Origin: Bacteroidota bacterium
Lineage (GTDB): Bacteria; Bacteroidota; Rhodothermia; Balneolales; HLUCCA01
Length of the DNA stretch: 46,473 nucleotides
Direction: 5' to 3'
Assembly (NCBI GenBank): GCA_020832235.1
Contig: JAFIEZ010000002.1
Location: 1-46,473 of the forward strand
Shown: positions 2,092 through 40,824 of the stretch, piece after piece
How the letters are laid out: every line of letters begins with the position of its first letter
Numbering within the stretch: position 1 is the first letter of the stretch
Translations under genes and position numbers: made by a program
The notes under the pieces: generated by a model
What the model saw: only the letters and a program-made list of their open reading frames with translations
Databases searched by the model: none
What the model was told of the DNA's origin: nothing

Positions 2092-3051
2092 TTATCCGAG
2101 GAATCCGAGTACAGACTGTGGGCCGTTATTGGCCTGAGCCAGGGCTGAGGTAGCTGTTTGCTGCAGAATTTGCAAACGGATAGATTCACTTTGTTCTTTA
2201 GCGAAGTCGGTATCCATGATACGGCTGGCTGCAGAGCTGTTCGCGCTGATTGATTGTGAAAGAGTAACCTCGCGCAAGCTTAGCGACGATTGTGCCACAC
2301 CAATTTCATTTACACGTTCTGCCATAGAATCGATGGCTTTATCAATAGCTCCAATGAAGTTTCGGAAGTCGCCTGATTCCGCGTCATTGAAATTGAATGT
2401 ACCTCGTACGTTGGTGGCATCTTGTACAATTGTGATATCTGCTATCGCTACATTTGCACCGTTGGCATCAACTCCTTGTACTGCACCTGTATTGAATAAA
2501 GCAGCTATGTTTACGGCTGAGATAGAGGTGCCAAGAGTGTCTTGTGCTCTTTCACCAACCTGGAAGGTTAATGTAAATGCGTTTGTGAATGTAGAATTAC
2601 CTCCTGCATTTACTTCTCCATCAAGTAATTGATAATCTTGAAATACAGTCTGCGCTGCGATTTCATTAATATCGTTTCCTAAAGCTTTAATCTGATCGGC
2701 GATGAACTTGCGTTCGGTAGAACCGAGGGTATCGTTGGCCGCTTGTGTTGCCAGGGCCTTCATTTCGATGAGCTGATCCATTACGGTGTCAAAGCTAGAC
2801 TCGGCAATTTCGAGCACCGATTTTGCGTCACCAACATTTGCCAAGGCCTGTTCCAAACCTGCAACTCGTGCATTTAATTTGGTGGCAATTGAGTATCCTG
2901 CAGCGTCGTCTTCGGCGCGGTTAATGCGCAAACCGGTAGACAAACGCATCTGATTTTCGGCGAGGCCTTTATTGATGCGGTTCAGGGAAAGCTGGGAATC
3001 CAGGGCCTGAATATTCGTATTAATTCTATTGATATCTCCAAAGCTAGACAT
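2092..3051 (-). CDS. fliC: Flagellin
   Basis: A 319-residue flagellin. Residues about 1-143 and 235-319 are the conserved D0/D1 coiled-coil regions. The central region (about 148-225) is shorter than in its neighbours, Asn-rich and divergent. The last ~140 bases are the same as in the flagellin ending at 3684, and the first ~180 bases (plus leader) nearly so, which suggests gene conversion between the two. The ATG follows TTTGGAGAAACATC, giving a clear GGAG ribosome site. Expression should depend on the sigma-28-like promoter just upstream. Confidence 0.96.
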   Translation of the reverse strand: MSSFGDINRINTNIQALDSQLSLNRINKGLAENQMRLSTGLRINRAEDDAAGYSIATKLNARVAGLEQALANVGDAKSVLEIAESSFDTVMDQLIEMKALATQAANDTLGSTERKFIADQIKALGNDINEIAAQTVFQDYQLLDGEVNAGGNSTFTNAFTLTFQVGERAQDTLGTSISAVNIAALFNTGAVQGVDANGANVAIADITIVQDATNVRGTFNFNDAESGDFRNFIGAIDKAIDSMAERVNEIGVAQSSLSLREVTLSQSISANSSAASRIMDTDFAKEQSESIRLQILQQTATSALAQANNGPQSVLGFLG

Positions 3052-3683: not shown

Positions 3684-4655
3684 TTATCCGAGGAATCCGA
3701 GTACAGACTGTGGGCCGTTATTGGCCTGAGCCAGGGCTGAGGTAGCTGTTTGCTGCAGAATTTGCAAACGGATAGATTCACTTTGTTCTTTAGCGAAGTC
3801 GGTATCCATGATACGGCTGGCCGCAGAGCTGTTCGCGCTGATAGCTTGTGAAAGGGTAACCTCACGCAATGTGAGCGACGATTGGGTTACACCGATGTCA
3901 TTGACACGGTCGGCCATGCGCTCAATTGCAGTATCGATAGACTTTAAGAAATTCCTGAAATCAGCCGATTTTGGTGCGTTTGCTCCGGTCGCAAATGTTA
4001 GTTCTCCTCCGCCATTTGCGGTAGCTGCTGTCGCTCGAATGGACGTTGCACCCGCACCACCACTTCCTGCGCCGACGCCAAAGTCAGCAACGGTTGTACC
4101 GTCCGAGAACAGCATAGATACGTTTACTGCATTTAATGTGGTTTCTATGATATCCTCAGCACGCTCACCAACCTGGAAGGTTAACGTTAGTCCACCAACA
4201 CGAGTTGCGGCTGTAGCATTACCGTTTAAAAGCTCGAAATCTTGAAATACGGTTTGATCAGCGATTTCATTGATGTCGTTGCCGAGCTCTTGAATCTGCT
4301 TGCCTATGAAACGTCGTTCTGTATCTCCGAGGGTGTCGTTGGCCGCCTGTGTTGCCAGGGCCTTCATCTCGATGAGCTGATCCATTACAACATCGAAGCT
4401 GGCCTCAGCAATGTCGAGCACCGACTTTGCGTCGCCAACATTTGCCAAAGCCTGATTCAGGCCTGCAACGCGAGCATTTAATTTGGTGGCAATTGAGTAT
4501 CCTGCAGCGTCGTCTTCGGCGCGGTTAATGCGCAGACCGGTAGACAAACGCATCTGATTTTCGGCGAGGCCTTTATTGATGCGGTTCAGGGAAAGCTGGG
4601 AATCCAGGGCCTGAATATTCGTATTAATTCTATTGATATCTCCAAAGCTAGACAT
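3684..4655 (-). CDS. fliC: Flagellin
   Basis: A 323-residue flagellin with the conserved N-terminal (about 1-140) and C-terminal (about 240-323) D0/D1 regions and a variable, Gly/Ala/Thr-rich centre. The centre resembles the 476-1462 copy in composition, while both ends are essentially those of the 2092-3051 copy. The gene therefore looks like a mosaic produced by recombination within the array. The leader has a GGAG ribosome site, a hairpin and a sigma-28-like promoter; the 3' side carries structured element B. Secreted through the flagellar export apparatus, no signal peptide. Confidence 0.96.
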   Translation of the reverse strand: MSSFGDINRINTNIQALDSQLSLNRINKGLAENQMRLSTGLRINRAEDDAAGYSIATKLNARVAGLNQALANVGDAKSVLDIAEASFDVVMDQLIEMKALATQAANDTLGDTERRFIGKQIQELGNDINEIADQTVFQDFELLNGNATAATRVGGLTLTFQVGERAEDIIETTLNAVNVSMLFSDGTTVADFGVGAGSGGAGATSIRATAATANGGGELTFATGANAPKSADFRNFLKSIDTAIERMADRVNDIGVTQSSLTLREVTLSQAISANSSAASRIMDTDFAKEQSESIRLQILQQTATSALAQANNGPQSVLGFLG

Positions 4656-29822: not shown

Positions 29823-30038
29823 TAAGGTAAACTCACATCTTGTGATGGGTATTGGTTACTGAAGACGGGCTAACATTAATCGCTGTCGGATTCAGTTTGC
29901 CGCGCTGGCCAACACTGGCTCATATCAAAAACAGCCCAAAATAAATCCGGCTTGTATGGTATTTAGCATGTTGATAAGTTAACGCTGTAGCGTTGTTTTA
30001 ATGTGTATTTATTTAAACTAACTGGCCGTCAATACTTT

Positions 30039-30998
30039 ATGGGGTTTATACAATCAACCGAGCCTGAGCCGCACGTCGCTCGTCGCCGCGAAATTTTAGC
30101 AAAGTATCCACAGATTAAGACACTAATGGGCAGAGACCCGAAGACAGCACTATACATCATTCTCCTTGTTTTGTTTCAAATTGGTATGGCCTGGTTTGTC
30201 TCACAGCAATCGGTATGGGTGATGCTGGCCAGTGTTTTGCTGATAGGTGCATTTGCCAATCATGCCTCCTTTGTATTGGTACATGATGCTATTCATAATC
30301 TTGTATTCAAAAATGCTGCATTGAATCAGATATTTGCCATTCTGGCCAATCTGCCGTCGGCAGCGCCATCGGCTGTCTCCTTTAAGACATACCATCTAAA
30401 ACATCACGCGCATCAGGGTGTAGAAGAAATGGATGCGGACCTCCCCAGAAAGTGGGAAATATGGCTGTTTAACAGAGGGTTTTGGGGCAAAGCGCTATGG
30501 CTGAATATGTATCCGCTGATTATTATTTTCCGTCCGTTGGATATCCGGAGTTTCAGTACGCCCTTCGACTGGACGTTCGTTAACTTCGTGGTTGTACTGG
30601 GTTTCGATGCGTTGATACTGTACTTTTTTGGATTCCAGGCTTTTGCCTACCTCCTGTTATCATCATTCTTCGGTCTGGGGTTGCATCCGGTTGGAGCACG
30701 ATGGATTCAGGAACATTTTGTGATGAAGGAAGATCAGGAGACGTATTCATACTATGGCCCGTTGAATAAGATAGCCTTTAATGTTGGGTATCATAACGAA
30801 CATCATGATTTCGCTGGAATTCCCTGGAGTCGGCTGCCGAAAGTACGTGAAATGGCTCCCGAGTACTATAACACCCTCGAGTACCATACTTCCTGGAGTA
30901 AGCTGCTATGGCGATTTCTTACCGATCCGAACATAACGCTGGAAAGCCGCATTGAGCGGGAAACCCGATTTGGATTGAGAAAGCCTAAGGTGGCCTGA
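30039..30998 (+). CDS. Sphingolipid delta-4 desaturase-like membrane enzyme (DES1 family)
   Basis: 319 residues. Integral membrane di-iron desaturase with the three His boxes HDAIH, HLKHH and HNEHH. Beyond the generic boxes it carries features I recall as specific to eukaryotic dihydroceramide delta-4 desaturases: RRREILAKYPQIKTLM near the N-terminus, YYGPLNKIAFNVGYHNEHHD, LPKVREMAPEYYNTL and a closing SWSKLLWRFLTDPNITLESR. Hydrophobic segments at about 38-80, 155-175 and 185-215 fit the family topology. It would introduce a trans 4,5 double bond into a ceramide-type backbone. A GTG 12 codons upstream is possible; the ATG at 30039 matches the family start MG. It stands alone; no serine palmitoyltransferase gene is in the window. 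Confidence 0.88.
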   Translation: MGFIQSTEPEPHVARRREILAKYPQIKTLMGRDPKTALYIILLVLFQIGMAWFVSQQSVWVMLASVLLIGAFANHASFVLVHDAIHNLVFKNAALNQIFAILANLPSAAPSAVSFKTYHLKHHAHQGVEEMDADLPRKWEIWLFNRGFWGKALWLNMYPLIIIFRPLDIRSFSTPFDWTFVNFVVVLGFDALILYFFGFQAFAYLLLSSFFGLGLHPVGARWIQEHFVMKEDQETYSYYGPLNKIAFNVGYHNEHHDFAGIPWSRLPKVREMAPEYYNTLEYHTSWSKLLWRFLTDPNITLESRIERETRFGLRKPKVA

Positions 30999-33670: not shown

Positions 33671-33843
33671 ATGTTCGTGCCTGCGTTCAGGGTGTGTCCA
33701 CTTTGTTCAGTTTGACGAAGGTAACCGCGTACGGTATTGCGCGATAGCCCTGTATCACGTGCTATACGTCGCCGGGATATGCCACTGTGGGCTTGTTGGA
33801 TAATAATTCGAATCTGATCCATAGTAATCGGGTTTGCTGCCAT
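33661..33843 (-). pseudogene. istA: IS21-family IstA transposase, N-terminal remnant
   Basis: About 60 codons from MAANPITMDQIRIIIQ, with the HTH typical of IstA (GISRRRIARDTGLSRNTVRG). IstA is normally about 500 residues and followed by istB; both the catalytic DDE part and istB are missing. After LRQTEQSGH the sequence leaves the family and ends at a stop that lies within the end of the outer-membrane protein gene. The fragment is the leading part of a largely deleted element. Confidence 0.85.
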
Positions 33844-33989
33844 ATGCCTTCGCTTTGGTGAAATAAAGCAAAGGTACAATGCTCCGTGGGGTGGGTCAGC
33901 TTCGAGTGAAACGGGTGGGTCAGTTTACACTGAAACAGGTGGGTCACTTTCGAGTGAAATGGGTGGGTCAGTTTGTACTGAAATTGTCA
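33671..33989 (-). mobile_element. IS21-family element, left-end remnant
   Basis: Runs from the terminal TGACAATTTCAG at 33989 through four 24-bp transposase-binding repeats to the 5' part of istA. The inner body and the other end are absent. The terminal TG dinucleotide, multiple long subterminal repeats and gene order match IS21 ends. The outer end has cut an AbiEii-type gene. Confidence 0.85.
33891..33986. repeat. Four 24-bp tandem repeats at the IS21 end
   Basis: Four consecutive 24-base units starting GTGGGTCA at 33891, 33915, 33939 and 33963. Units 1 and 3 share TTCGAGTGAAA; units 2 and 4 share an ACTGAAA ending. The alternation suggests two classes of transposase site. Confidence 0.9.
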
Positions 33990-34124
33990 TGCATCTCGTG
34001 CAATGGCTCCAAGCAGATAGAAATCTACATCACATTTTATAAACACTTTTTCTACTACTTGTAGTAGTTCTTTGAGCTGATCTTGCCGCAGATCTTCAAG
34101 CTTTATCTGTAGGGGTTTTCGCAT
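33987..34124 (-). pseudogene. AbiEii-type nucleotidyltransferase toxin, truncated after 45 residues
   Basis: Starts with ATG at 34124, overlapping the end of the AbiEi gene by 29 bases. The peptide (start MRKPLQIKLEDLRQ, end VDFYLLGAIARDA) matches the N-terminus of Bacteroidota AbiEii/nucleotidyltransferase toxins, whose FYL.GAIARD segment opens the catalytic fold. The reading frame stops at a TGA that is the first three bases of the IS21 terminus, so the insertion both breaks the gene and supplies the stop. Catalytic acidic residues beyond this point are lost; no toxic product is expected. Confidence 0.85.
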
Positions 34125-35097
34125 AAATTTCTTTAGCTATTTTGATATTCCTTGGATCACCGGTAATCATTAAATCCGTATATACTACAAGACGAGGAGC
34201 TATATTTGGTGGGTCATTTTTTACTGACCAGTATGGTTCTCTGACTTCAATTTTACCATTTTCGTCAGGTATTAGTTTGAACTCCTTTATGAGCTCACTT
34301 CGATTCTTTTTGGCATAAAGTATGTACTCCACGGGTTTGAGATCGTTCGTTAAAAGATCCGCTGCAGGCTCACCTCCCCATTGATCCAGCCCACCCAATA
34401 GCAGCTTCTTCCAATTTTGTTCGATCCCTTTATTCATGAAATTATATCTCCCTTTTTGGATACGGGGTTTGAGTTCATCCGCGAAGGCAGTAATCCATTG
34501 ATCTAAAAGCTTTTCCCTGTTTTTAAGTTTAAGGGTATCTTTGTTTTTGGCATATATGAGGCCATGCTCCTTCAGCCCATCCAAAACATGTTTGATGTTT
34601 CCCAATGAGACATCTGCAGCCTCAGCGATTTCTCGATACGTTTTATTTAGCCAAGCTTCATCATAAAGAAACAAAAAAACGACTTTTAAGCCGGTTTTGG
34701 TAAAGGCTCGGTTTTTCATTTGCTGAAGGGGGGTTGTGGTGTGAAGATCAATCCATACAAGGGTTTCCTCTTCTTCTAAATGAATATTTCCGGCCACATC
34801 TATCCAATCAATCCCCGCCTCATTCAAAGCTTTTTTAATATTGGGGTATAACCGTTCGGCCACCAATATGAGTGGGCCAACCTTATCTTGTAGCTCCTTC
34901 AATTGGGGAATATGATGTTTACGAATCTCCTTTTTGATCTCCGCATTTCGAACAATAGCTTTCTTTTTATTTGGATTGAATGTTACCCTGGCATCTACTT
35001 TTAAACTATGTCCAGGGACATAGGCCTCCCATTCCGTCTTATGACCGATTTTTGGTGGAAGATTCTGAAGTGCTTTTTCGAGGATTGTTTGCTTCAT
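34096..35097 (-). CDS. AbiEi-family antitoxin / transcriptional regulator
   Basis: 333 residues, full length. It matches the larger AbiEi-type antitoxins of Bacteroidota: N-terminal region to ~75, PLILVAERLYPNIKKALNEA and IDWIDVAGNIHL (about 75-105), RAFTKTGLKVVFLFL, then a winged helix (YREIAEAADVSLGNIKHVLD, about 155-185). The C-terminal domain carries EPAADLLTNDLKP. In type IV TA systems AbiEi represses the operon and counteracts the AbiEii nucleotidyltransferase. Here the toxin partner is broken, leaving an orphan antitoxin. AT-richer than the genes around it, as expected for a transferred module. Confidence 0.88.
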   Translation of the reverse strand: MKQTILEKALQNLPPKIGHKTEWEAYVPGHSLKVDARVTFNPNKKKAIVRNAEIKKEIRKHHIPQLKELQDKVGPLILVAERLYPNIKKALNEAGIDWIDVAGNIHLEEEETLVWIDLHTTTPLQQMKNRAFTKTGLKVVFLFLYDEAWLNKTYREIAEAADVSLGNIKHVLDGLKEHGLIYAKNKDTLKLKNREKLLDQWITAFADELKPRIQKGRYNFMNKGIEQNWKKLLLGGLDQWGGEPAADLLTNDLKPVEYILYAKKNRSELIKEFKLIPDENGKIEVREPYWSVKNDPPNIAPRLVVYTDLMITGDPRNIKIAKEIYAKTPTDKA

Positions 35098-35338
35098 GTG
35101 TTCATTATTATAATTTGTTCACGAATCGTATACACCATTAATTAATGAACAATATCAGTGAATAGCAACATTAATGAACGATTAGGCTTACATGATATTC
35201 CTACATAATTCTCTTGCTGGTTCCTGTCACTCGATCATACCTAGGAACGCATGGAATAATGGAAGTGGGATTACAACCACCTCTGACCACATAGGTCTTT
35301 AGGAGATTCTACAAAAATGAGTATTATGACCCCACAAA

Positions 35339-35379
35339 CAAAAAAGCCCTGAACTGCGTTTGAAGCAATTCAGGGCTTT
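35339..35379 (-). terminator. Intrinsic terminator behind the tRNA fragment
   Basis: AAAGCCCTGAA pairs with TTCAGGGCTTT around a 15-base loop; leftward it runs into six U. It lies 3 bases beyond the CCA end of the tRNA fragment, which implies that an intact leftward tRNA gene once ended here. The rest of 35098-35338 shows no gene. Confidence 0.85.
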
Positions 35380-35382
35380 GTA

Positions 35383-35432
35383 TGGTACACCCGCCAAGAT
35401 TCGAACTTGGAACCGCCTGATTCCTAGTCAAG
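35383..35432 (-). tRNA. 3' fragment of a tRNA gene (probable attachment-site scar)
   Basis: Reading leftward: anticodon stem CUUGA/UCAGG with loop CUAGGAA, variable GGUU-type loop, T arm CCAAG-UUCGAAU-CUUGG, acceptor 3' strand CGGGUGU, discriminator A and encoded CCA. The 5' half is absent: no D arm and no ACACCCG acceptor partner precede it. The loop suggests anticodon AGG, but its identity is uncertain because a recombination junction may lie in the loop. Integrative elements that use tRNA genes leave such 3' copies at one end. Confidence 0.8.
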
Positions 35433-35763
35433 CAGATTGTGGTCTTAATGTGTATTTAAATGCACATTTAAAAATTTGTGACCACACTTTTGACCACACT
35501 TGATGGGAAAAACGGGAATTCAGTCTTCCCGTTTTCTTGCAAATTCCAACTCAATCGAGGTATGCACTCGCTCCCCAAAGTGGCAAAGTGGCGAAAATTC
35601 TAACTTGAGCAGCGGGTCGTCTTTCCAAGAAAATACAAACAGTAGCATCCAACCTCCAACTGGACTTACAACTTTCGCCACTTCGCCACTCCCCTAATCC
35701 CCCCTCCTTTCTGGTATAAGAACAATGAGCCTTGCTCATTAATACTCACCAAATTCTTATACC
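35433..35763. other. Element-end region with direct repeats and a terminator hairpin
   Basis: No gene supported. TGACCACACTT occurs twice (35479-35489 and 35491-35501), with inverted GTGGTC at 35439, as expected for integrase arm sites. A hairpin AACGGGAA/TTCCCGTT with T-run follows (35511-35536). No integrase gene lies nearby. The DUF932 gene begins at 35764 after a GC-poor stretch. Confidence 0.45.
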
Positions 35764-36531
35764 ATGAACCTACAAAACTTCATGTTTCCGGTTACCGAGC
35801 GCCAGGTAGCTGTGAACGATTTACATCATAACGGCGCGCGATGGAAGGATAATCAAACCTTCCTTGCATCCCCGTACAAAGCCATCGTACGTGAAGACAC
35901 CAACGAGGTGATCTCCATCGTTCGCGACACCTACCAACTGGTCCGCAACGAAGAACTAATCCGCTCCCTTCTGAATCAGCTGGTCGGACTAAGTACATCC
36001 TTTCGACTCGACCCTTCGCATTCCTTCGTTCAAAACGAGCGCATGCGACTGCAAATCACCTTCCCAGAGCTACGCATGCAGGACTCCGAAAGCGACATCG
36101 CTTTAAGCTTGTTCCTGCACAACTCCTACGACCAGAGCGAGGGCGTACGCATGTACTTCGGTGCTATTCGAAGCATCTGCTCCAATGGCATGATTTTCGG
36201 GGATGTCATGGCCAAAATGTACCATCGACACACCCGTGGATTCGAGCTGAGTCAGCTCAGTGAGAAGCTGGATGAGGCCATCGAAACCTTCCCGGTCATC
36301 AACCACCGTATCCGTCAGCTTGAACGCACTCCCGTGGACGCTGAGCTGGTCGATCGTGTGGAGAAGCACATCTCCAAGCGTCTGGCACAACAGGTCATCG
36401 AGGAGCAAGAGCTGGACTCCATCAGCCAGTGGAAGCTTTTCAACAAACTCACCTACTTCGGGTCGCACGATCTGGAGCAACACAAACGGGCGCGTTACCA
36501 ACAGCAAATCGCCAAGGTGTTCGCCCTTTAA
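35764..36531 (+). CDS. DUF932 (phage/plasmid-like TIGR03299) protein
   Basis: 255 residues. It shows the family pattern: substrate-like YKAIVREDTNEVISIVRDTY near residue 40, FRLDPSHSFVQNERMRLQIT, SLFLHNSYDQSEGVRMYFGA and an ICSNGMIFG segment. DUF932 proteins are common on phages, plasmids and ICEs next to single-strand-annealing or exonuclease genes; the molecular role is not established. Cytoplasmic. First gene of a four-gene rightward set (DUF932, small ORF, YqaJ-type nuclease, DUF669-like). Confidence 0.85.
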   Translation: MNLQNFMFPVTERQVAVNDLHHNGARWKDNQTFLASPYKAIVREDTNEVISIVRDTYQLVRNEELIRSLLNQLVGLSTSFRLDPSHSFVQNERMRLQITFPELRMQDSESDIALSLFLHNSYDQSEGVRMYFGAIRSICSNGMIFGDVMAKMYHRHTRGFELSQLSEKLDEAIETFPVINHRIRQLERTPVDAELVDRVEKHISKRLAQQVIEEQELDSISQWKLFNKLTYFGSHDLEQHKRARYQQQIAKVFAL

Positions 36532-36560
36532 CCCTAAACCCGTTCGGAGGAGACGATGCA

Positions 36561-36737
36561 ATGGGCGATCCAATGCAACGACAGCGAGGTGAGATTTTCT
36601 TCCTGAGAGCCATTATAGAGCTGACAGGAGAGCTGGTCAAAGAGCTCTTGAAGCTCCTGCTCAAGGATAAAATCCCACCGCAACCAGAGCAAAAACACGA
36701 ACCCAACACAGAGGCTGCCACTAGGCGGCCTTTTTAA
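36561..36737 (+). CDS. Small basic helical protein in the recombination module
   Basis: 58 residues, start MGDPMQRQRGEIFFLR. GGAGG ends 10 bases before the ATG, the gene stops 17 bases before the next start, and direction and spacing fit the operon. The sequence forms one amphipathic helix (ELTGELVKELLKLLLKDKIP) and a polar tail rich in Pro, Gln and Glu. Family unknown. It may be an accessory of the nuclease gene that follows. Confidence 0.6.
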   Translation: MGDPMQRQRGEIFFLRAIIELTGELVKELLKLLLKDKIPPQPEQKHEPNTEAATRRPF

Positions 36738-36754
36738 TTTAACGGAGGCATACT

Positions 36755-37702
36755 ATGGCAACAGCCGTAAAATACCTGGATAACATCCCCACAAAAAAGT
36801 GGGTAGCTGACCGCAAAGCCAGCCTAGGAGGCTCGGAGGTCGCCGCCGCACTCGGACGCTCCGAGTACACGACCCCGCTGCGCTTATGGATGATCAAGAA
36901 AGGGCTTATAGAGCCCATGAAGGGCAACGCGGTAACCGAGTTCGGACACGTATTCGAACCGGTCATGGCCGAGAAGTTTACCAAGCTGACCGGACTCAGA
37001 ACCCGGAATGCTCCCAAAACCTACGCCCACAGCCAGTACCCCTTCCTGCGTGGAAACATCGACCGGCAGATTATCGCCAGTGATAACCATCCCGGAACGG
37101 GCTTGCTGGAGCTGAAGACAACCACCTCCAACCGCCTGAAAAACCTGAGCGGACCCTATCCGCTGGAGTGGAAGTATCAGATACAGTTTTATCTGGCCCT
37201 TACCGGCTACGAGTACGCCTATCTGTTCATCTACGAGCGTGACAGCGCCGAGTACCACAAGCCTATCATCATCTTTCGTGATGACCGGTTCATCGCCGAG
37301 ATGATCAGCGAAGTGGCAAAGTGGTGGAATAAGCACATCGTTGGAGGAGTTCGACCTGATCCGGTAAACGGCGAGGACAGAATCATCCTGTTCCCGGAGT
37401 CCAAGGGTGATGTGGTCGTGGAGGCTACCCCAAAGGCCTACGGCTACTACACCGAGCTACTGGATATTCGCCAGCGGATGGAGCGTCTTGAAGCGCTGGA
37501 GGACCATTACAAAAACCTGCTCAAGGATCACCTGAAGGAGGCTGAGCGAATGGTAGCCGGTGGAAGGACGCTGGTAAGCTGGAAGAGCAGCACCTCTACC
37601 CGACTGGACACGACGCGGCTCAAAGCAGACCATCCCGATCTGTATCAACAGTACGGTGTGGAGTCCAGCAGCAGACGTTTTCTACTCACCAAACCCAAAT
37701 AG
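36755..37702 (+). CDS. YqaJ-type viral recombinase / lambda-exonuclease-like nuclease
   Basis: 315 residues. PD-(D/E)XK nuclease of the YqaJ family: SLGGSEVAAALGRSEYTTPL at the start of the domain, then FGHVFEPVMAEKF, the catalytic Asp in RGNIDRQII and the E-x-K pair in GLLELKTTT, followed by WKYQIQFYLALTGYEYAYLF (conserved Gln). C-terminal ~90 residues form a helical region with MERLEALEDHYKNLLKDHLK. It is expected to resect double-stranded DNA ends for phage-type recombination. GGAGG lies just ahead of the ATG. Ten bases separate it from the next gene. Confidence 0.9.
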   Translation: MATAVKYLDNIPTKKWVADRKASLGGSEVAAALGRSEYTTPLRLWMIKKGLIEPMKGNAVTEFGHVFEPVMAEKFTKLTGLRTRNAPKTYAHSQYPFLRGNIDRQIIASDNHPGTGLLELKTTTSNRLKNLSGPYPLEWKYQIQFYLALTGYEYAYLFIYERDSAEYHKPIIIFRDDRFIAEMISEVAKWWNKHIVGGVRPDPVNGEDRIILFPESKGDVVVEATPKAYGYYTELLDIRQRMERLEALEDHYKNLLKDHLKEAERMVAGGRTLVSWKSSTSTRLDTTRLKADHPDLYQQYGVESSSRRFLLTKPK

Positions 37703-37711
37703 GAGGCCACA

Positions 37712-38221
37712 ATGCCACTTATCATTCAAGAAGATCCGAATAAATATCCCCTGCCACCAGAAGGCCTGCACAAAGCCGTTTGTGTGGATGTGGTAGACTT
37801 AGGAGAGCTGGACACGAAGTTTGGGTCCAAGCACAAGCTGTCCATCATCTTCGAGCTGGAAGAGGAAGATGAAGAAGGTCGGCGGTTTATCGTAGGCAAA
37901 CGCTACACGTGGAGTCTAAACGAGAAGTCCAACCTGAGAAAAGATCTGGAGCGATGGATCGGTCGGAAGTATCGCTCCGAGGAGCTACTAGCCGGCATTG
38001 ACCTGGAAGAGATGCTCGGACTCAACGCTACCCTGTTCATCGCGCATAACGCTGGAGAAGAACGCACCTATGCCAACATAGAAACGATTCTACCGGCGAA
38101 TGGCAAAGGCGCAGATAAGTACGGTCTGAAGCCGAGCAGTCAATACACCCGTGTAATTGACCGAGAGGGCTACAAAGAGCCATCCGAATACGCTGCATCC
38201 GTCAACGGCGCTGCGGTGTGA
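37712..38221 (+). CDS. DUF669-like phage protein
   Basis: 169 residues. The pattern (LHKAVCVDVVDLGEL, KHKLSIIFELEEED, GKRYTWSLNEKSNLRKDLER, LNATLFIAHN) is that of DUF669-type proteins, which accompany phage recombination or replication genes and may bind single-stranded DNA. It is preceded by AGGAGG and starts 10 bases after the YqaJ gene, closing the module; a terminator follows 7 bases after the stop. Confidence 0.75.
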   Translation: MPLIIQEDPNKYPLPPEGLHKAVCVDVVDLGELDTKFGSKHKLSIIFELEEEDEEGRRFIVGKRYTWSLNEKSNLRKDLERWIGRKYRSEELLAGIDLEEMLGLNATLFIAHNAGEERTYANIETILPANGKGADKYGLKPSSQYTRVIDREGYKEPSEYAASVNGAAV

Positions 38222-38227
38222 CGGCCA

Positions 38228-38257
38228 AAGTACGCTCCCGACCGGGCGTGCTTTTTT
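38228..38257 (+). terminator. Intrinsic terminator of the recombination module
   Basis: AAGTACGC pairs with GCGTGCTT (one G-T pair) and runs into a T tract. The remaining bases to 38497 hold no recognisable feature. Confidence 0.8.
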
Positions 38258-38497
38258 AGGTTGGGATGTGGAGTGGTTGAACAGGTTTAAATATTCACAT
38301 TATGTGATTATTTAGGTTCGATTAGGTACCCAAGGCGTTACAGTTGAAGGCTGATGGAAGCAAAATAACGCTGGTATTTAAGTTGCATATCAAGAACTTA
38401 TTGAGCAACTTGCACCTCAATATCTTGTTGTATAGGGGGAAAACTCTTCGTCCAATAAACTTAAGAAGTTCGAGTTAACAGTAATTCAAGAGTCATC

Positions 38498-39643
38498 GTG
38501 AACGAAACAATATTTCATTTAGACAATAGCGGAAAACTCTCAGAGTTGAACGAAGAAAACTACATTTCAGAAGATCTTCTTCAACAGCTTTTGGCTGATT
38601 ATCCGAACTTAATTTCGGGTGCACAGATCAATAGTCTACGACCAAGAAGATGGTTACTAATTTCAAGAGAGTTTCGAGTTCCTGACGATAAAGACGCGAG
38701 TGGTCGTTGGAGTTTGGACCACTTATTCATTGACCAAGACGGCATACCAACTTTGGTGGAAGTAAAACGCAGTACCGATACAAGAATAAGAAGAGAAGTT
38801 ATTGGTCAAATCCTCGATTATGCTGCGAACGCTGTTACATATTGGACGATTGAAGAAATAAAGCATCGTTTTGAAGATCAATGTAATTCCCTAAATAAGG
38901 ATAACCTCGAAGCATTAGAGGAATTTCTTCAAAAGGAAAATGAACCTGAGAATTTTTGGGAGTTAACGAAAACTAACTTAAAAGCTGGAAAAATCAGAAT
39001 GCTAATCATTGCCGACAGCATTCCAAAAGAACTACAACGAATTATTGAGTTCTTAAATGAGCAAATGACACCAGCCGAAATTTTAGGCCTAGAAATCAAA
39101 CAATTTGTAGGTCAAGACAATGTGAAAACACTTGTTCCGAGAGTAATCGGTCAAACAGCAACTGCTGATAAAACGAAGGGTGTCAATAAAGGAAAAGAAA
39201 ACAGTTGGAACGAAGAAACCTTTTTCGCCGAACTAACAGCACAGCGTGGAGTTGCTGAAACTGAGGTAGTCAGAAAACTTTTAAATTGGATAAAACCGCA
39301 AACAACTCGGATTTGGTTTGGTGCAGGAAAACGAGGTTCTATGGTACCAGTTTTCTCACATTTAAGAGTAGATCATTATCCATTTGCTTTATGGACAACA
39401 GGTGCAGTTGAAATCTATTTTCAGTGGTATAAACACAGGCTCCCATTTGAAAGTGAGCAAAAAAGACTGGAGTTGTTAGACAAGCTCAATCAAATTAATG
39501 GCGTTAGCATTCCAGTAGACAAAATTGATAAACGTCCTAGTATTCCATTAAACTTACTTGTTGATGAGAAGGAGTATCAGAAGTTTTTAGACATCTATAA
39601 ATGGTTTATAGGGGAAGTAAAGGTTTCTAAACCCACTATATAA
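38498..39643 (+). CDS. PD-(D/E)XK-type nuclease-like protein of unknown role
   Basis: 381 residues, GTG start (no better in-frame start). The N-terminal ~130 residues carry a nuclease signature: Asp in SLDHLFIDQDG and E-x-K in TLVEVKRS, then the QILDYAANAVTYW helix with a conserved Gln, like DUF91/NucS-type and other restriction-like folds. The rest (about 230-375) has a winged/beta region with FSHLRVDHYPFALWTTGAVE. The gene is visibly more A/T-rich than the phage module to its left, suggesting separate acquisition. It stands alone behind a terminator. A defence role is possible from fold and location but not shown. Confidence 0.75.
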   Translation: MNETIFHLDNSGKLSELNEENYISEDLLQQLLADYPNLISGAQINSLRPRRWLLISREFRVPDDKDASGRWSLDHLFIDQDGIPTLVEVKRSTDTRIRREVIGQILDYAANAVTYWTIEEIKHRFEDQCNSLNKDNLEALEEFLQKENEPENFWELTKTNLKAGKIRMLIIADSIPKELQRIIEFLNEQMTPAEILGLEIKQFVGQDNVKTLVPRVIGQTATADKTKGVNKGKENSWNEETFFAELTAQRGVAETEVVRKLLNWIKPQTTRIWFGAGKRGSMVPVFSHLRVDHYPFALWTTGAVEIYFQWYKHRLPFESEQKRLELLDKLNQINGVSIPVDKIDKRPSIPLNLLVDEKEYQKFLDIYKWFIGEVKVSKPTI

Positions 39644-39906
39644 CATCTTTCAAAGAGGATAAAATCAACAGGGCAAACGAATGCCTGTCCGTAGATTGTA
39701 ACGGATGTATTCAAGGTTGTTAGTAGTATCGTCAACGAACTTCCGGCGGTCTGTTTGTGATCTTCATGTAACGCTACTGGCGTCTAAACATCTTTGCGGG
39801 CTTGGCGGTATACCATGTCAACTGCCTACGGAAGCATTCACCTGTATCATAAAGGAATTTCGATTAACTTAGGCTCAATCAAATCCAACGAATTAAGTAA
39901 ACAAAC
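39644..39906. other. Intergenic region ahead of the hsdM::glnS chimera
   Basis: No gene. It would be the native 5' flank of the island's hsdM, since coding for HsdM begins at 39907. A TAACGCTACTGGCGTCT segment resembles AACGCTAACGGCGTCT near 27410, maybe a dispersed short repeat. Confidence 0.35.
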
Positions 39907-40824
39907 ATGACAAGCACCCAACAGCGCGCCGAACTACAACGCCGAATCTGGCAAATTGCCAATGACGTTCGCGGTGCGGTAGACGGATGGGATGATCCAC
40001 GGATGCCAACCATTTCCGGACTTCGCCGACGAGGCTACACACCCAAATCCATACAAGAGTTTTGTGCCCGTATCGGTGTTGCGAAACGCGATAACTTGAT
40101 CGACGTATCATTGCTGGAATTCTGCGCCCGCGAGGATCTCAATAAAATCGCCCTCCGTCGCATGGTGGTGTTCGATCCCGTTAAACTGGTGATCACAAAC
40201 TGGCCGGAAGGCAAGGTCGAAATGCTCGAAAGTGAGAATAATCCGGAGGATGCATCCACCGGTGAGCGCTCAGTTGCATTCAACGGCACGATATATATAG
40301 AGCGGGATGATTTCATGGAAGACGCTCCGAAGAAGTACTTCCGCCTGTCGCCGGGTGCCAGTGTACGACTTAAAAGCGCCTACATCATTACTTGTGAGGA
40401 TGTAGTAAAAGATGCATCCGGCACCGTTACCGAAATCCGTTGTATGTACCATCCCGATTCACGGTCGGGCAGCGATACCTCTGGTATCAAGGCTAAAGGA
40501 ACACTCCACTGGGTGAGCACGGAGCATGCCGTTGAGGTAGAAGTACGCGATTACGATCGCCTTTTCCGGGTTGAAAATCCGGCTGAGGAAGAGGGTGATT
40601 TCCTGGACTATGTAAATCCGGATAGTTTAACGGTTATTGCGAAAGCGTATGCTGAACCGGCGCTGATTGATGATGCTGTTGAAGCCGCATCATCAGGCGT
40701 TCTACCACACTACCAATTTATGCGCAAAGGCTATTACTATGCCGACAAGTCTTCCACCCCAGAGAAGCTTGTATTTAACCAGACGGTTGGACTTCGCGAC
40801 ACCTGGGCGAAGTTGAATAAATAG
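39907..40824 (+). pseudogene. In-frame chimera: HsdM N-terminus joined to GlnRS C-terminal half
   Basis: 305 residues, one open frame. Residues 1 to ~29 (MTSTQQRAELQRRIWQIAND, then VRGAVDGWD) match the start of type I restriction HsdM subunits (EcoR124I type), which continue FKQYVLG. From WDDPRMPTISGLRRRGYTP to TVGLRDTWAKLNK the protein is instead glutaminyl-tRNA synthetase, C-terminal part: the end of the catalytic region and the two anticodon-binding beta barrels (KIALRRMVVFDPVKLV, LRDTWAK). The GlnRS Rossmann half with HIGH and KMSKS-type motifs is absent, so it cannot charge tRNA. The junction falls in VDGWD, which both families share. It looks like a deletion fusing hsdM to glnS, or an assembly join. 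Confidence 0.85.

Follow-up and report, generated by a model that had tools for sequence, protein, structure and literature searches.

A double bond between C4 and C5 sets ceramide and sphingosine apart from the saturated dihydroceramides of bacteria. Sphingolipid delta-4 desaturases have a specific N-terminal domain, Lipid_DES, and DEGS2 is mainly a C4-hydroxylase. By published assignment DEGS2, a C4-hydroxylase/desaturase, belongs to the DES family (PMC10940770, PMC6920741). Missense variants of human DEGS1 at N113, H132, L175, N189, N255 and A280 impair or abolish its activity, which is undetectable in N113D and lost in H132R (PMC10940770). Bacterial sphingoid bases have been stated to be fully saturated (PMC9045371), which counts against the function proposed below, and we found no characterised bacterial DES family member in the literature searched. 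Bacterial spt/cerS/cerR gene sets have been described, with Caulobacter cerS as the N-acyltransferase of such a set (PMC11324152). Caulobacter CC_0202, a DesA-type sphingolipid acyl hydroxylase, and the NCBIfam DesA/DesB enzymes share the PF00487 superfamily with the desaturase reported here. Lipid_DES is absent from the Caulobacter control genome, and CC_0202 thus probably represents another subfamily.

The window encodes a member of the DES family

We analysed a stretch of 46,473 nucleotides (the window) from a Bacteroidota genome of the order Balneolales; named relatives indicate a family other than Balneolaceae. It encodes a protein with Lipid_DES and FA_desaturase domains (Table 1), whose reading frame is uninterrupted and which is present in one copy in the genome. 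We place the start at the ATG at 30039; with a GTG of the same frame at 30003 as start, the protein would be 12 residues longer. Both Pfam matches are far above chance (Lipid_DES: E 6.4e-14, 51.5 bits against a cut-off of 23, and 55.1 bits for the same stretch in another search; FA_desaturase, PF00487: E 5.7e-29, 102 bits against a cut-off of 29.7). The original prediction had pointed to an N-terminal segment and to YYGPLN- and EYYNTL-type blocks beyond generic histidine boxes. All are literally present (RRREILAKYPQIKTLM, residues 15-30; YYGPLNKIAFNVGYHNEHHDF, residues 238-258; EYYNTLEYHTSW, starting at residue 276).

Table 1. Coordinates of the desaturase and of the candidate sphingolipid synthesis genes of the same genome (numbers without prefix, window; prefix L047, locus of the candidate serine palmitoyltransferase, SPT)
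Feature	Position	Strand	Basis or remark
Lipid_DES / FA_desaturase protein, predicted sphingolipid delta-4 desaturase	30039..30998	+	319 aa; Pfam and family alignment
N-terminal Lipid_DES domain (PF08557), residues 6-35	30054..30143	+	Pfam
First histidine box HDAIH, residues 82-86	30282..30296	+	both His invariant in family alignment; HEIAH in DEGS1
Second histidine box HLKHH, residues 119-123	30393..30407	+	last His corresponds to DEGS1 H132
Third histidine box HNEHH, residues 252-256, within FNVGYHNEHHDF	30792..30806	+	invariant in family
Candidate SPT (alpha-oxoamine synthase, G000:C10)	L047:9511-10749		solved-structure match and residue at PLP-Lys+30
GNAT ceramide synthase-like N-acyltransferase	L047:10761-11885		directly downstream of SPT
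SDR reductase	L047:6071-7150	-	near SPT
Two glycosyltransferases			upstream of SPT in same cluster

The histidine boxes follow the HxxxH, HxxHH, HxxHH pattern of the DES family. Four NCBIfam models match the protein with 22-35 bits against cut-offs of 350-500, and the bacterial DesA/DesB equivalog cut-off is not reached (22-23 bits versus 500). An AlphaFold model (pLDDT 82.5) has a membrane di-iron fold, for which the best named match is AlkB (PDB ID 8f6t, Z 15.4, r.m.s.d. 4.0 over 253 residues); higher scores were obtained only for two unnamed chains from Chlamydomonas Ycf2/Orf2971-FtsHi complexes. A sequence search of solved structures returned no DES structure. Membership in the membrane di-iron DES family is firm on these sequence and domain matches, whereas the reaction is a prediction.

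Comparison with human DEGS1 and the family tree

The window desaturase resembles DEGS1/DES1 in domain architecture (PF08557 followed by PF00487), in length (319 versus 323 residues), in its three histidine boxes and in the ETYSYYGPLN and FNVGYHNEHHDF blocks. It differs in its bacterial host and in having GARWIQEH where DEGS1 has GHFIAEH, ahead of the ETYSYYG block. Identity is about 43% over 307 residues to a provisional human DEGS1 sequence (323 residues) that has the right residue at 8/8 positions of the variant table in PMC10940770. At all six missense sites named above the human wild-type residue is kept in the window protein. These comparisons, together with the Pfam domains, bear out the proposed homology to sphingolipid delta-4 desaturases. 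The Asn equivalent to DEGS1 N113 is N104 in the window protein; Asp occupies this site in 37 of 112 rows of the family alignment, in members from Saprospiraceae and Ignavibacteria, which may accordingly differ in activity.

The original prediction had named placement among acyl-lipid desaturases as contrary evidence. Our tree does not show it: the non-DES desaturases of relatives lie outside the DES family, on long branches. Within the family, five Balneolaceae proteins form a clade with the motif GHFISEH (L017-L020 and L166, from genomes G191, G089, G262, G187 and G398) and carry both Pfam domains of the window desaturase. One of them, L017, is 49% identical to the provisional human DEGS1 sequence and 45% identical to the window protein. 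This clade groups with human DEGS1 at 100/99, the window protein lying outside the group; with a single eukaryotic row that is provisional and long-branched, we treat the grouping as a lead only. The clade may reflect gene transfer from bacteria to eukaryotes or the reverse. GARWIQEH or a near variant replaces GHFISEH in the window protein and in the other rows inspected, and by motif and tree position the window protein is assigned to a bacterial GARWIQEH subfamily, distinct from the clade nearest the human enzyme.

Distribution of the family and the desaturase locus

The DES family is widespread in Bacteroidota, and the window gene is no one-off. Lipid_DES occurs in 39 of 394 genomes of the phylum (25/170 genera), in 10/129 genomes of the source order and in one of five in the source family. 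A scan of GTDB confirmed relatives in at least 581 stretches, and almost all of the 80 listed are from Bacteroidota in the broad sense; the same query found no relative in viral, phage or plasmid collections. Within the source family, absence of Lipid_DES is firm for a genome of the same genus (G223, 98% complete), which has no PF00487 protein at all, and less firm for the others; in one of these, G448, a contig end adjoins the expected desaturase site.

Contamination is an unlikely explanation for the window contig: the segment at 18.2-26.9 kb shares synteny with G223, and that at 31.2-33.6 kb has a match in G448. The synteny with G223 stops at 26.9 kb, short of the desaturase. We compared gene neighbourhoods at 98 loci (the window and 97 others) and found no conserved sphingolipid neighbour of the desaturase. 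The neighbours in common track taxonomy only, and we rejected a functional link by this route. At nine Mucilaginibacter loci (L145:7207-8118 and eight others) an FA_hydroxylase gene (PF04116) adjoins the desaturase; its product could carry out a further modification of the sphingoid base or acyl chain.

Downstream in the window, a segment of about 310 bp (33677-33989) is 93% identical to its copy in G223, whereas the flanking genes are 65-79% identical. It overlaps a small HTH_23 reading frame, has a partial second copy in contig C10 of the same genome and is probably an insertion-sequence remnant. The region 34096-40824 encodes an AbiEi-type antitoxin regulator, a DUF932/TIGR03299 protein, a YqaJ recombinase and an NGO0469-type replication protein, followed by a 305-residue C-terminal piece of a glutamyl/glutaminyl-tRNA synthetase; the arrangement suggests that an element has integrated next to a synthetase gene, now truncated. 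Tandem flagellin genes lie on the minus strand at 476-1462 and 2092-3051, and a third reading frame, at 3684-4655 on the same strand, resembles this pair in size and spacing.

Candidate sphingolipid synthesis genes in the source genome

A search of the genome for serine palmitoyltransferase, a check suggested with the original prediction, returned a candidate with ceramide-type neighbours (Table 1), so that the other contrary result named there, a genome lacking any sphingolipid synthesis gene, did not occur either. Its best solved match is the Sphingobacterium SPT (397 bits, versus 287 for KBL and 228-232 for SulA/CFAT), and its best NCBIfam model is SerpalmtaseCFB, with 490 bits and thus below the equivalog cut-off of 640. 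A Lys at PLP-Lys+30 has been proposed to distinguish SulA from SPT (PMC9304779); the candidate has Ala at this position. The adjoining GNAT protein shares 36-37% sequence identity with N-acyltransferases from Rubrobacter, E. coli plasmid records and Sphingomonas, which are accompanied by SPT and SDR in the Rubrobacter and E. coli plasmid records and lie near an SPT-like gene in Sphingomonas. A desaturase adjoining the Sphingomonas GNAT was considered as a DES relative and rejected, having neither Lipid_DES nor a BLAST match.

The SPT, GNAT and SDR genes appear to match the published description of the spt/cerS/cerR sets, and the cluster, glycosyltransferases included, is conserved in G223. The genome therefore looks capable of making dihydroceramide, possibly in glycosylated form. 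We found no cysteate acyltransferase in it, which leaves lipids of the ceramide type as the only sphingoid-like substrates in evidence.

Partner enzymes across the phylum

All 39 Lipid_DES genomes encode an SPT or a SulA-type enzyme (SPT only in 17, SPT and CFAT in 16, CFAT only in 6), and a sphingoid-type substrate is therefore possible in each. SPT-like genes are found in 300/394 genomes of the phylum, and for this reason the desaturase is not enriched alongside SPT: it occurs in 33/300 genomes with and 6/94 without SPT-like genes. As this difference is not a clear enrichment, we rejected co-occurrence as proof of function.

The six CFAT-only carriers lack an SPT-class enzyme (G146, G150, G249, G371, G387 and G391). 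Matches of about 340 bits to NF047600 in the SPT-less genomes were considered as SPT and rejected, as they are KBL-type (GTLGKALGG); a second class has the SulA Lys. Among the SulA-type enzymes of these six genomes, 4/4 sequences inspected have Lys at PLP-Lys+30. The six carriers suggest that sulfonolipids might also be desaturated. Flavocristamide A is presumably a known 4-ene sulfonolipid; its structure was not found in the literature searched.

Predicted reaction and its alternatives

The window desaturase probably acts on dihydroceramide at C4-C5. In the pathway we envisage, SPT would condense serine with an acyl thioester, and reduction and N-acylation would yield dihydroceramide. With O2 and some electron donor, the desaturase would then remove hydrogens from C4 and C5 of the sphingoid base. 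The product would be a (4E)-unsaturated ceramide resembling those of eukaryotes, and the two glycosyltransferases might glycosylate it. Counting against this function are the separation of the desaturase from the sphingolipid genes, the score of the SPT below its equivalog cut-off and the lack of enriched co-occurrence.

Desaturation and hydroxylation have the first hydrogen abstraction at C4 in common, which favours the main rival, that the enzyme hydroxylates C4 of dihydroceramide to form phytoceramide or, like DEGS2, catalyses both reactions. DEGS2, of the same family, increases the cellular levels of phytosphingosine and phytoceramide (PMC10940770, PMC6920741). No sequence feature examined favours hydroxylation, DEGS1 being the only enzyme compared directly, and we consider this reaction unlikely, although the sequence does not separate desaturation by DES from DEGS2-like C4-hydroxylation. 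Action at another sphingolipid site, on the amide-linked fatty acyl chain or at a different position of the base, has a precedent in CC_0202, a DesA-family desaturase/hydroxylase reported to hydroxylate the amide-linked acyl chain (PMC11324152). The absence of Lipid_DES from the Caulobacter control genome, and the conservation of this domain, which points to the C4 site, make this quite improbable.

A generic acyl-lipid desaturase acting on glycerolipids, the sole one of the cell, would fit with the window desaturase being the only PF00487 protein in the source genome, a fact that counts for the delta-4 reading too. Set against it are the Lipid_DES match above cut-off, the 43% identity to the provisional DEGS1 sequence and the position of relatives' non-DES desaturases outside the family tree. 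G223, moreover, has no PF00487 protein, which argues that a glycerolipid-type desaturase is dispensable in the genus, and we judge this explanation very unlikely. The six genomes with SulA/CFAT-type and without SPT-class enzymes, with Lys at PLP-Lys+30 in the four whose sequences we inspected, could be taken to mean that sulfonolipid (N-acyl-capnine) is the general substrate of the family and ceramide a secondary one; the 17 of 39 carriers with SPT and no CFAT, the source genome among them, leave this the least probable reading of all. Delta-4 desaturation of dihydroceramide is the best-supported function on the sequence comparisons made here, with C4-hydroxylation as its main rival.

Significance

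Pfam already includes this family and its genes are common, so the finding does not open a new category. What makes the prediction interesting, and easily tested, is that our literature searches turned up no work on a bacterial member and that bacterial bases have been stated to be saturated (PMC9045371). We tentatively propose that this uncharacterised, widespread bacterial DES family may make 4E-unsaturated sphingoid lipids, namely eukaryote-type ceramides where SPT is present and unsaturated sulfonolipids where there is only a SulA-type enzyme, and that one Balneolaceae clade may be specifically related to the eukaryotic enzyme. If true, eukaryote-like bases would be expected in genera available in culture, Mucilaginibacter and Chitinophaga among them, whose type strains allow a direct test of the claim. 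Environmental lipidomics that relies on sphingosine as a marker of eukaryotes would be affected, and the family would have a bearing on the origin of the eukaryotic delta-4 desaturase.
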